From Ferrovibrio sp. MS7 (GTDB taxonomy: Bacteria > Pseudomonadota > Alphaproteobacteria > Ferrovibrionales > Ferrovibrionaceae), in the NCBI RefSeq assembly GCF_038404985.1, contig NZ_JBBKBA010000001.1, positions 2,694,001 to 2,758,000 on the forward strand: DNA of 64,000 nt, in the 5' to 3' direction. The notes beneath the pieces are model-generated. The model did not search any database. It had not been told where the DNA came from and saw only the letters and a program-made list of their open reading frames with translations. The position numbers and the translations under genes are program-made. Shown here piece after piece: positions 4,250 to 7,581 of the stretch; within the stretch, counting starts at the first letter, position 1; the number at the start of each line of letters is the position of its first letter.

Positions 4250-4717
4250 ATGAAGACCTTTTCCGCCAAAGAATCCGAGGTCGAAAAGAAGTGGGTGTTG
4301 ATCGACGCTGATGGCCTGGTACTGGGCCGTCTGGCCAGCCTGATTGCCATGCGTCTGCGTGGCAAGCATAAGCCGATCTTCACTGCCCACGTCGACACCG
4401 GCGACAACGTCATCGTCATCAACGCCGACAAGGTGCGCGTGACCGGCCGCAAGGCGCAGCAGTCCGTGTTCTACTGGCACACTGGCTATCCGGGCGGCGT
4501 CAAGGGCGCCACCGTGGGCCAGCGCCTGCAGGGCCGCTTCCCCGAGCGCGTCATCATGAAGGCCGTGGAGCGCATGCTGCCGAAGGAGAGCCCGCTGGCT
4601 CGCCGTCAGCTCACCAAGCTCAAGGTCTACAAGGGTGCCGAGCATCCGCACGCCGCGCAGCAGCCGGTGACGCTGGACGTGGGCGCGTTGAATCCGAAGA
4701 ACAAGAGGACTGACTGA
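4250..4717 (+). CDS. rplM: 50S ribosomal protein L13
   Basis: A 155-residue ribosomal protein, a primary assembly protein of the large subunit. The family core is clear: [18 protein letters not shown] near the N-terminus, the [15 protein letters not shown] strand, [16 protein letters not shown], and [20 protein letters not shown]. The length suits an alphaproteobacterial L13, with a C-terminal extension over the E. coli protein. It starts at an ATG preceded by an AGGAC-type site. Two bases separate it from rpsI, the almost universal partner, so the two form one transcription unit. Confidence 0.99.
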
Positions 4718-4719
4718 TC

Positions 4720-5202
4720 ATGGCTGAGTCCCGCACTCTCGCCGACCTGAGCAAGACCAAGGCCGTTGCCGCGGTTCAGGCCGCCGATCCCGTTCATGAG
4801 CGCAAGGTCGACAAGCTCGGCCGCGCCTATGCCACCGGCAAGCGCAAGGACGCGGTCGCCCGCGTCTGGATCAAGGCCGGCACTGGCAAGTTCGTGGTGA
4901 ACGGCAAGGAAAGCAACACCTACTTCGCCCGCCCGGTTCTGCGCATGCTGCTGCAGCAGCCCTTCGTGCTGACCAACCGCGCCGGCCAGTTCGACATCTA
5001 CGCCACCGTCACCGGTGGTGGTCTGTCGGGCCAGGCGGGTGCGCTGCGTCACGGTATCTCGAAGGCGCTGACCTATTATGAGCCGGCGCTGCGTCCGGCG
5101 CTGAAGGCTCAGGGCTTCCTGACCCGCGACCCGCGCGTCGTCGAGCGCAAGAAGTACGGCAAGCCGAAGGCCCGCCGCTCCTTCCAGTTCTCGAAGCGCT
5201 AA
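4720..5202 (+). CDS. rpsI: 30S ribosomal protein S9
   Basis: A 160-residue ribosomal protein of the small-subunit head, whose C-terminal tail reaches the P-site tRNA. The core begins at [19 protein letters not shown] (about residue 37), includes [19 protein letters not shown], and ends in the expected basic tail FQFSKR. The N-terminus is about 30 residues longer than the E. coli protein, as in other alphaproteobacteria. It is co-transcribed with rplM and followed by a strong terminator hairpin. The usual follower argC is absent here. Confidence 0.99.
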
Positions 5203-5240
5203 GCGACCAAAAGCTGCTAATTGCCACCAATTGCTACGAA

Positions 5241-5267
5241 GGCCGGGGTGCAACCCCCGGCCTTTTT
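5241..5267 (+). terminator. Rho-independent terminator after rpsI
   Basis: GGCCGGGG (5241-5248) pairs with CCCCGGCC (5255-5262), followed by a run of T. It ends the rplM-rpsI unit 39 bp after the rpsI stop. Confidence 0.85.
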
Positions 5268-5401
5268 GCTTACGTGCGGTTGCTATTACCAATTGCTTCG
5301 CGATAACCGGCACTCAACTGTTGATTCGCTATTCTGAATACCTCACAGTCTGCGCAAGGGGCGGATTCGTCCGCAGGGTCCAACAGGGAAGCATAATCGC
5401 C

Positions 5402-5956
5402 ATGACTTTGGCCGATATGGTCTTCGCCTTGCTGCCGGCTATCGGGCTCTTTTTCATCGTCGGCCTTACAGCCAACTGGCTGGAAGAGGCGGCGCAGCAT
5501 TACGCGCGCCGTGAACTCAAGTTTGACGAAGAAAACGAGCGCCTGCGCGCCGCCTATGATGCCGTGAATGAGCGCGCGCTGCAGATCGAAGCTGAACAGG
5601 AGAAGCGCGCCGAGCGCGAGCGCAGCCTGTTGCAGCTCCAAAACGAGCACGCCAATGCCATGGCGCAAGAGATCAAGCTGACCGATCCGCGCAATATCAC
5701 CGTGTTCGAGCATGGCATCCCGACGCCGAATGCCGTCGGCTATTATGCCAAGGCGGTCGGTCCGGCCAACGCCTACCCCTTCGATGGCAAGGGCTCTGGC
5801 ACCAGCGGTGTGCATGGCCGCCGCTATGCCCGCTTCATCGTCTGGGGTACCAATCAGGCCAATGCAGACAGGCTGATCAAGCAGTGGATCGGCCCGCAGG
5901 GTCAGGTTCTGGAATTCCGTCCGTTCACCGGCAAGCTCAAGATGACGGAGATCTGA
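5402..5956 (+). CDS. Membrane-anchored coiled-coil protein of unknown function
   Basis: I do not recognise a named family. The 184-residue protein has one transmembrane helix near the N-terminus (about residues 5-24, FALLPAIGLFFIVGLTAN). A charged coiled coil rich in E, R and A follows (about 28-92), then a compact C-terminal domain (about 95-184) with FEHGIPTPNAVGYYAK and ARFIVWGTNQANADRLIKQW. The ATG at 5402 is chosen because it immediately precedes the membrane helix; longer readings upstream look non-coding. Only two bases separate it from the next gene, which has the same anchor-coil-globular layout, so the two proteins probably work together. Location is predicted to be the inner membrane; the orientation of the globular part is not certain. 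Confidence 0.75.
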   Translation: MTLADMVFALLPAIGLFFIVGLTANWLEEAAQHYARRELKFDEENERLRAAYDAVNERALQIEAEQEKRAERERSLLQLQNEHANAMAQEIKLTDPRNITVFEHGIPTPNAVGYYAKAVGPANAYPFDGKGSGTSGVHGRRYARFIVWGTNQANADRLIKQWIGPQGQVLEFRPFTGKLKMTEI

Positions 5957-5958
5957 CG

Positions 5959-6501
5959 GTGACCTTGACCGACTTCATCGAGACCCTGGTCGTCGCCGCC
6001 AATCTGGGTATCTTCCTGCTGGTGGTGCTGACCATCTCCGAGCGCCTGCGCGCCGGCTGGCGCTTTGTCGAGCGCCAAGTACAGGAGATCGTTTCACGCC
6101 GCGAACAGGCCGAGAAGGACCAGTCGCATTACGACGACACGCTGACCGACGAGCGCAAGAAGGTGGCCGAGATCGAGAGCCAGATTTCGCGCGCGCGTTC
6201 CGAGCTGGAGTCGCTGGAAGGCCGCCATGGCGAGACCGACCTGCCATTCTTCTATACCGCGACACCGATCGAAGGCGTCGATCCGCGCTTCCCGTCCTGG
6301 CGCCTGATGGCGCATAATCCCCAGCTCGGCCAGCGCGCCATGCAGCTTTCGGAAACCGCCTACCAGTGGAACGAGGGCCGTTTCTACGAAATCCCGGCGC
6401 CGACCCATGCGGCGGCCCGTGCCGCGCTGGAGCGCATCCTGCCGCCGCAAGACGGCTTTTTCGTCCGCGTCGTCGACGACGAAAAGAGTGGTGTGGCTTA
6501 A
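5959..6501 (+). CDS. Second membrane-anchored coiled-coil protein, partner of 5402-5956
   Basis: A 180-residue protein with the same plan as its upstream neighbour but little sequence likeness. It has one membrane helix (about residues 11-27, VVAANLGIFLLVVLTIS), a coiled coil (about 35-92, including KVAEIESQISRARSELESLE), then a small C-terminal domain (about 95-178) with RFPSWRLMAHNPQLGQRAM and YEIPAPTHAAARAALERILP. A GTG at 5959 is the likely start, right after the upstream stop; the ATG at 5884 would overlap the previous gene by 73 bases. No known family was recognised. Close coupling suggests a hetero-complex at the inner membrane. Confidence 0.72.
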   Translation: MTLTDFIETLVVAANLGIFLLVVLTISERLRAGWRFVERQVQEIVSRREQAEKDQSHYDDTLTDERKKVAEIESQISRARSELESLEGRHGETDLPFFYTATPIEGVDPRFPSWRLMAHNPQLGQRAMQLSETAYQWNEGRFYEIPAPTHAAARAALERILPPQDGFFVRVVDDEKSGVA

Positions 6502-6627
6502 AGCCGCATCCGCATCCATCAGCCGTCTGGCTGCGTATACCTCCTGTTGAAACTAGCGGCGGCCAGCCTATTTCCCTGGCTGCAACGCCATGGAAGGCGG
6601 GATAGCGGTATTTTAGTAGCCAGGGCC

Positions 6628-7581
6628 ATGATCGACTCAATCCATACGGCTGCGTCATTGCCGGATCGCTTCGATTTCGCGCATCCGGAATTGCGTCGGG
6701 CCGGGGCGTATTTTGCCCGCGGTGAGAATCGGGAGCCGTTACTGGCGTTACCGATAGGTAGCCTGACTGGCTCGGTGACGCTGGGGGCATTGGCGAGCAG
6801 CCTTAATCTGCCGGCCGATGACCCGGACTGGCTGCTGCTCGAACTGGTGCCGTTGGCACTGCGCTATCGGCGGAAAGTCGAGGCTGGCTCGGCGATGCCG
6901 AGTGAACTTGCCGATGGCAGCCCGTCCTGGCTGCCCCAGGCACATGTGCAGCAGCGTGGCGCCGCTCTGGTCTGGCGGGCGTTGCAGCCGTCAGAAACTG
7001 CGGGGGAGGCGCTGTCGGCGGCGGGGACCACGCCTGAACAACTCCGAGATATGGCCCTGCGCCTTAAACCTATGTTGCCGCAACTGAATGCCGATGCCTT
7101 GGAGCGGCATTTGCGGCAGGTGATTCTTGATCTGGCCCGCAGTGATTGGGTGCGGCGGGCGACAAGCGCCTTGCAACGCACGGTGGGCGAGATGGCGCAA
7201 TTCGCGGCGGCAAGGCCAAGTGATCCGCTTGGCGATACAGCGCGGCGCACTGCCATGCTGCTGCGCAACGTTGCCATCTGGGGTACGCGCCGCGCCATGC
7301 TGTGTGATGCCGCGACATCAGATGTCCGCCGATTGTTGCAGGAGCCGCAAATCCTGCGGCATCGCGCATGGCCTCTGCTTGGTGAAATGCGAGCCATGGC
7401 ATTGGATGTCGAACCGATTGTCACTCAGTGGCAACAGGCGCGCGGTAGAGGCGATGGCGTCAGGATACGCGATCTGGACAATATTCTGCGATTGACCGTG
7501 GCACGCTACAGCAGTTTCGACCCAGAGATTTTCTCCAGGCCGAAACTACCCGACCCGTCGAATGAAACATTCGATGCATGA
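6628..7581 (+). CDS. Conserved-looking hypothetical protein, mostly helical
   Basis: I do not recognise this 317-residue protein. It has no signal peptide and no membrane helix, and reads as mostly alpha-helical, with many R, L and A residues. Notable stretches are FDFAHPELRRAGAYFARGE near the N-terminus, ALRYRRKVEAGSAMPSELAD, a long helical middle (about 160-260), and RIRDLDNILRLTVARYSSFD near the end. The ATG at 6628 is preferred; an upstream in-frame TTG at 6547 would add 27 residues of low quality. Codon usage fits the neighbours, so it is probably a real gene. It lies 26 bp before a PAS-domain gene and could be co-transcribed with it. Confidence 0.6.
   Translation: MIDSIHTAASLPDRFDFAHPELRRAGAYFARGENREPLLALPIGSLTGSVTLGALASSLNLPADDPDWLLLELVPLALRYRRKVEAGSAMPSELADGSPSWLPQAHVQQRGAALVWRALQPSETAGEALSAAGTTPEQLRDMALRLKPMLPQLNADALERHLRQVILDLARSDWVRRATSALQRTVGEMAQFAAARPSDPLGDTARRTAMLLRNVAIWGTRRAMLCDAATSDVRRLLQEPQILRHRAWPLLGEMRAMALDVEPIVTQWQQARGRGDGVRIRDLDNILRLTVARYSSFDPEIFSRPKLPDPSNETFDA

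Follow-up and report, generated by a model that had tools for sequence, protein, structure and literature searches.

A conserved pair of adjacent genes encoding membrane coiled-coil proteins with homologous C-terminal domains in Ferrovibrio and other Alphaproteobacteria, probably a new family

The window, by which we mean the whole stretch of 64,000 nucleotides of Ferrovibrio sp. MS7 DNA that was analysed, carries two adjacent genes, called here A and B, whose features are collected in Table 1. They lie downstream of two genes (4250-4717 and 4720-5202) that we take to be rplM and rpsI, and they are separated from each other by two bases only (5957-5958). A first-pass annotation of this DNA had described two adjacent genes of one and the same plan, and our analysis confirms the two-base gap, a membrane helix at residues 6-24, heptad periodicity and a C-terminal domain of about 85 residues in both products. 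Comparison of the window's genome with that of another Ferrovibrio (G000 vs G006) revealed purifying selection on both genes, with dS 1.05 and dN 0.161 for A and dS 0.92 and dN 0.143 for B, and since dN is well under dS in either case we regard both frames as real genes. The terminator-like stem found after rpsI suggests that the pair forms a transcription unit of its own; sites of this kind are consensus matches, three of which were seen in 5190-6620 against 1.4 expected by chance. Downstream of the pair there is an open frame of 344 codons (6547-7581, +), for which Pfam and NCBIfam gave no match at E up to 1.

Table 1. Features of the A-B gene pair in the window
Feature	Position	Strand	Properties and basis
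Gene A	5402..5956	+	ATG start, 184 aa; membrane helix, coiled coil, C-terminal domain
Gene B	5959..6501	+	GTG start, 180 aa; plan as in gene A, homologous C-terminal domain
Membrane helix of A, residues 6-24	5417..5473	+	hydropathy; N tail without K/R
Membrane helix of B, residues 6-24	5974..6030	+	hydropathy
Coiled coil of A, about residues 31-92	5492..5677	+	periodicity; weak coiled-coil-type Pfam/NCBIfam matches there
Coiled coil of B, about residues 33-92	6055..6234	+	periodicity; weak coiled-coil-type Pfam/NCBIfam matches there
C-terminal domain of A, about residues 98-184	5693..5953	+	predicted beta-beta-alpha-beta core, mean pLDDT 83.9; profile comparison
C-terminal domain of B, about residues 95-175	6241..6483	+	predicted beta-beta-alpha-beta core, mean pLDDT 76.1; profile comparison
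Terminator-like stem and T run after rpsI	5245..5257	+	consensus match only

In both proteins the helix is the most hydrophobic segment of 19 residues (mean Kyte-Doolittle value 2.38 in A and 2.42 in B), and heptad-type periodicity extends over a charged region of about 60 residues behind it, with p=0.03 for A and p=0.003 for B as judged by shuffles of the same segment. Among the Ferrovibrio proteins the periodicity reaches p<0.05 in 14 of 17 B proteins but only in 8 of 17 A proteins. The K+R content of the 20 residues that follow the helix is higher than that of the N-terminal tail in 82 of 86 A proteins (equal in the other four) and in all 83 B proteins, those counted being the ones with hydropathy above 1.6 and a tail of at most 30 residues out of 89 A and 88 B, a few proteins of the genus entering twice. 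Such a charge distribution would place the N terminus outside and the coiled coil together with the C-terminal domain in the cytoplasm. We consider this orientation fair but not firm, because outside the genus an automatic rule set the start to the nearest ATG or GTG upstream, so that N tails are shortened and positive charges possibly hidden, and because the post-helix stretch of the window's own A is more acidic than basic (only 3 K/R vs 6 D/E). Single-domain soluble relatives, which by eye have no evident helix or signal peptide, fit a cytoplasmic place of the domain.

According to our analysis the C-terminal domains of A and B are homologous. Profiles of 71 A and 77 B domains match each other in hhalign at 98.1-98.3% with E of 1.4e-13 to 1.3e-14, against at most 2.0 in 40 column shuffles and 0.6 for the reversed control. 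Among domain-only profiles, those of distant members match at 96.9% (A vs B) and at 98.8% (A vs the small soluble proteins described below), and the distant B profile is matched by Ferrovibrio B at 98.1% and by Ferrovibrio A at 88.8%; shuffled-column or reversed controls of this set of comparisons gave at most 2.9. Profiles made from Ferrovibrio A and Ferrovibrio B domains alone do not match (0.5-0.7%), so the A-B homology depends on the distant members. The Ferrovibrio A domain matched distant A domains at 3.5% at first and at 77.4% when compared with a larger A set, and did not match the small soluble proteins (0.4%). Pairwise BLASTP of the two window proteins gave an alignment limited to the helix and the coiled coil (E 4e-4). 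The first-pass annotation saw no clear likeness between A and B, and for the C-terminal domains this stands at the level of BLASTP and of genus-only profiles, but falls once distant members are added (98%, E about 1e-13). It would be logical to suggest, and we regard it as rather probable, that the two subunits are products of the duplication of one ancestor, which were later inherited and multiplied as a unit.

The models of the two domains have a predicted strand-strand-helix-strand core in common, the model of the B domain being of moderate quality only (pLDDT 76). The best structural match of either model is a ribosome chain, with Z 5.9 and rmsd 3.4 over 56 residues for A and Z 5.4 and rmsd 4.3 over 62 residues for B; the result rows name the ribosome only, and we take the matched chains, of about 170-180 residues, to be eL20/LX. 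PaaB (3egr_B) was matched by the B model with Z 4.9 and rmsd 4.7 over 58 residues. As the Z values of 5.9 and 5.4 stay below 8, the likeness to eL20/LX or PaaB may reflect just a common arrangement. Foldseek gave nothing below E 0.1 with either model (E 0.12 at best), and a sequence search of solved structures with A and B gave nothing below E 0.04.

No family could be assigned to the pair in the first-pass annotation, and this has been borne out: neither A and B of the window nor six distant A and B proteins have a Pfam or NCBIfam match over cut-off. The best match below cut-off for the window's B is DUF6779, with 21.2 vs 28.1 bits, and it covers the coiled coil. PHROGs and PADLOC, which were used without cut-offs, likewise gave for B a best match over the coiled coil (E 0.005). 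For A the best PHROGs profile is an Rz-like spanin (E 0.007, residues 18-90); Rz-type spanins have a similar layout of helix plus coil, and we rejected this identity, as the match covers the coiled coil and ends before the domain. The DUF1043 (ZapG) model was absent at E up to 1 for the window's A and B and for the distant members tested. No DivIC or FtsL model matched A or B of the window over cut-off; matches below cut-off were confined to one distant pair (L053), where the DivIC model scored 22.1 bits with B and 13.2 bits with A (cut-off 28.9) and three FtsL models 13.0-14.7 bits (cut-offs 42-55). Among the matches listed from the open PubMed Central literature no description of the pair was found, which is a weak negative.

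Within the GTDB family of the window, A and B each occur in 10 of 18 genomes, that is, in all ten of Ferrovibrio (the window's included) and in none of the eight from other genera. B stands directly downstream of all 18 A places, and a nineteenth B is partial, at a contig end with no room for A. Five Ferrovibrio genomes have one pair, G012 has two, G007, G011 and G013 have three each, and G009 has two full pairs together with the partial B. Both flanks were read in five genomes (the window's, G006, G011, G012 and G013), and in all of them rplM-rpsI and a CoxE-like/AAA gene pair enclose one or two pairs; in G010 the pair follows rplM-rpsI and different genes lie beyond it, and a third type of paralogue is located elsewhere. 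The paralogue types are distinct both in A distances (at most 0.58 within a type, at least 0.62 between types) and in B distances (at most 0.57 and at least 0.63), and the units duplicated in Ferrovibrio are whole pairs. The window's own genome (G000) also has, on contig C4 at about 198,383-198,877, a lone gene (L208:1228-1722) for a protein of 164 aa with helix, coiled coil and the same C-terminal domain. Nine of the ten Ferrovibrio genomes have a weak match to the domain away from the pairs, for which a protein was read in G000 and G005 only.

Beyond the genus the two Ferrovibrio profiles behave differently. That of B finds 19 of 385 genomes of the class, 15 of them beyond the genus, several of these being coiled-coil or short matches; that of A finds 5 of the 385, with only one weak coiled-coil match beyond the genus, and the distant relatives were reached through B alone. 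Ten distant loci read by eye turned out to be two adjacent genes of the same plan. A profile of such distant second genes matches all 59 genomes and all 13 genera of one family (f52, presumably Azospirillaceae), with 1 to 12 matches per genome when both partners are counted, and several hundred matches to the pair profile were found in total across these 59 genomes; in another family (f61) only 5 of 39 genomes are matched, three of them weakly. Just one relative bears a name, a pair carried by a replicon of Indioceanicola profundi (Azospirillaceae), both genes of which are annotated 'hypothetical protein'. It was the single record returned by a plasmid search with the B protein of locus L104, and the same search with the window's B or with the B of L106 gave no match. 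The B domain profile has matches at E up to 0.001 in 36 of the 385 genomes of the class, which come from 25 of the 276 genera sampled. It also matches in 12 of the 18 genomes of the window's own family and in 8 of 398 sampled across the phylum, one of the latter lying outside the class as a weak match across two stops. The pair belongs to a large alphaproteobacterial family with many paralogous pairs.

How strict the pairing is can be seen from 99 distinct clusters, counted by six-frame domain searches in 127 of 232 fetched loci, clusters that share their last domain being entered once. They comprise 85 pairs, 2 double pairs (both from Ferrovibrio) and 12 single domains, the number of single domains being no census, as many loci of small soluble proteins and most Ferrovibrio loci lie outside this count. 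Eight of the singles have no helix above the cut (two of these near a locus end), three are lone genes with a helix and one is at a contig end; with the helix-less ones and the contig-end one set aside, 90 distinct clusters are left, of which 87 hold a pair or a double pair. An earlier count under a stricter rule for open frames, in which duplicates were retained, had yielded 83 pairs from 99 loci; of its 32 unpaired frames many are pairs with over-long frames. Together with the ten out of ten Ferrovibrio genomes these numbers mean that the pair is conserved across genera and families; the first-pass annotation would have counted against itself neighbours that never keep the pair together, which did not come true, the pair being rarely split.

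According to the profiles, A precedes B in 84 of the 85 single pairs, the remaining one having two domains that both fit the A profile best; the loci were mostly collected with B profiles, which partly match A too. A helix above the cut is present in both members in 77 of 85 pairs and was missed in one or both in the other 8, and in several pairs the stop of the first gene overlaps the start of the second. The window pair fits the A-B family as defined here, with helix, coiled coil, shared domain and adjacent A then B. Distances between A domains correlate with those between B domains at r=0.93 outside the genus (65 non-redundant pairs) and at r=0.99 inside it (16 pairs), values not reached in any of 2000 permutations; such a correlation is expected of any adjacent co-inherited genes. 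At one locus (L142), first taken as an unpaired B, the A gene is split over two frames by a frameshift or an assembly error.

Helix-bearing genes standing alone were found at three loci (L158, L159 and L188), in the first two of which an upstream A was looked for and none seen, and they indicate that the domain is not always in need of a partner. Soluble proteins of about 70-110 aa that consist of the domain only are encoded in various alphaproteobacteria (L054, L055, L057, L058, L062, L070, L071), and further small soluble proteins of this sort were met at L183-L187, L189, L190, L192 and L193. Many of them have an H..L.D.W-like motif. Pfam gave no family at cut-off for four of the small soluble proteins, and the DpnD-PcfM and Icd-like matches of two small proteins (E 0.003-0.005) extend over about 22 residues only.

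Among the neighbouring genes of the window there is a response regulator with LuxR-type output (1570-2379, -). Receivers of that class lie, as judged by eye, within about 3 kb of a pair in G000 and in four genomes of another family (G449, G437, G445 and G450) and 9-15 kb from it in G007, G010, G011 and G013, and are not near the pairs of G191, G399, G407 and G418 among the matches listed. As many neighbours were inspected before this one was chosen, its link to the pair is an unproven lead and may be due to chance. At two loci a molybdopterin oxidoreductase gene (PF00174) stands directly upstream of the pair (L106:3312-4310 and L113:3199-4176), and its product presumably resembles MsrP. In four genomes (L109, L111, L115, L120) one paralogue was found by eye beside a threonine-synthase-like gene or one to two called frames from it, and in at least two of the four an M16-type peptidase gene lies beyond the latter. 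At L225 a pair is directly beside phage-shock genes, as judged by the position of pspB.

We propose, with a probability of about 0.6, that A and B form an obligate hetero-complex of the inner membrane with two sister heads in the cytoplasm, which would serve as an adaptor or scaffold. Each subunit would have a short N terminus outside, one helix and, on the cytoplasmic side, a coiled coil with the small beta-beta-alpha-beta domain at its end; A and B would be joined through their coiled coils, which would bring two different sister heads abreast at the cytoplasmic tip, where the heads may bind a cytoplasmic protein, making the complex a membrane-tethered adaptor or scaffold. Each paralogous pair would serve its own client, and the many parallel pairs suggest that there are several clients. 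Computation shows that the genes are paired and inherited together, that the domains are homologous and that no Pfam or NCBIfam match lies over cut-off; we infer the orientation, from charges, as well as a direct contact of A with B, an adaptor role and a client. The first-pass annotation had said that the pair looks like a dedicated hetero-complex, and the retention of the pair across genera and families supports this view.

The hetero-complex has to be weighed against the suggestion that A and B form no complex and act as separate membrane proteins, adjacent since an ancient duplication. Solo membrane versions of the domain, at the three loci named and in the second gene of the window's own genome, speak in its favour, but both members are kept in 87 of 90 clusters (soluble singles and the contig end aside) over very divergent sequences, and the Ferrovibrio duplicates are whole pairs, so we consider separate action unlikely. 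A slightly better chance, though still a low one, may be given to an accessory role in envelope stress, where cytoplasmic heads would sense or dock PspA-type proteins of the phage-shock (Psp) system. PspB has a layout of one helix followed by a coiled coil, as A and B do, and of the 22 genomes of one f52 genus 10 have a pair at less than 3 kb from pspB and 8 more have one at 15-20 kb among the matches listed, one of these genomes having PspC, PspB, PspA and a sigma-54 activator as neighbours of the pair (L104:4247-8614). In the remaining 4 of the 22 no pair was on the pspB contig among the matches listed. Against this role, the closeness was observed for a single paralogue of a single genus and may reflect old synteny, in five genomes from four further genera (G191, G286, G399, G407 and G418, by eye) no pair was near pspB among the matches listed, and the Ferrovibrio locus adjoins rpsI. 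PspB itself is a separate gene in 58 of the 59 genomes of f52, and its model (PF06667) was not among the Pfam matches of the window's A or B.

The pair may also be compared with PilN and PilO of type IV pili, whose genes are adjacent, and with GspL and GspM of type II secretion. A divergent module of this kind, with N termini in the cytoplasm, coiled coils and domains in the periplasm and the task of aligning a secretion or pilus machine, is the least probable of the three alternatives. PilN and PilO each begin, by prediction, with a short tail in the cytoplasm, behind which come a single helix, a periplasmic coiled coil and a core of two ferredoxin-like motifs, and they form homo- and heterodimers (PMC5805733). 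The plan of A and B is the same. The charges of A and B, however, point in the opposite direction (82 of 86 A, 83 of 83 B; a prediction), and the domain has soluble relatives with no evident signal peptide. No pilus or secretion gene was recognised by eye beside the pairs, whose neighbours are annotated only in part. The PilN, PilO and GspL/GspM families were absent at E up to 1 for the window's A and B and the six distant A and B proteins, in lists that are incomplete above E 0.1, where HMMER filters remove most matches.

If we return to the cytoplasm-facing hetero-complex, its significance is that one domain occurs in three architectures (soluble, solo membrane and paired membrane), and that with a name for the family many such genes could be annotated as belonging to one paired system. 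Should the orientation be true, the two proteins form a membrane scaffold turned towards the cytoplasm, not the periplasm.

Several known systems share features with the pair. ZapG/YhcB (DUF1043) starts, in the excerpt of PMC8163987, with a membrane helix, behind which a coiled coil lies in the cytoplasm, as predicted for A and B, and a scaffold-type role in the envelope was proposed for it; unlike A and B, it was crystallised as a homotetramer, is conserved in gamma-proteobacteria and absent elsewhere, and is described in that excerpt with no partner of a pair and no C-terminal alpha-beta head (PMC8163987). The domain models of A and B may have a small alpha-beta arrangement in common with the ribosome chains that we take to be eL20/LX and with PaaB, with no sequence match to solved structures below E 0.04. 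The comparison with FtsL/FtsB (DivIC) of the divisome, made already in the first-pass annotation as one of layout, holds for the small paired membrane coiled-coil proteins as such and would break down in orientation: the coiled coil of FtsL/FtsB is periplasmic, opposite to that which the charges predict for A and B, whose heads are of about 85 residues and which occur as several paralogous pairs per genome. PilN and PilO come close to the pair as two small inner-membrane proteins with one helix each, a coiled coil and an alpha-beta core that form heterodimers (PMC5805733); A and B differ from them in the absence of a family match, the reversed predicted orientation and the existence of soluble and solo relatives. 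The conserved pair is probably a new family, with no described family in what was searched, in which a known general layout is used in a probably reversed orientation. We may even suggest, tentatively, that it is a mirror image of PilN/PilO, namely heterodimeric adaptors facing the cytoplasm and multiplied in one alphaproteobacterial family to several parallel pairs per genome; each pair would dock a client of its own, and soluble heads would compete with the pairs or bridge them.
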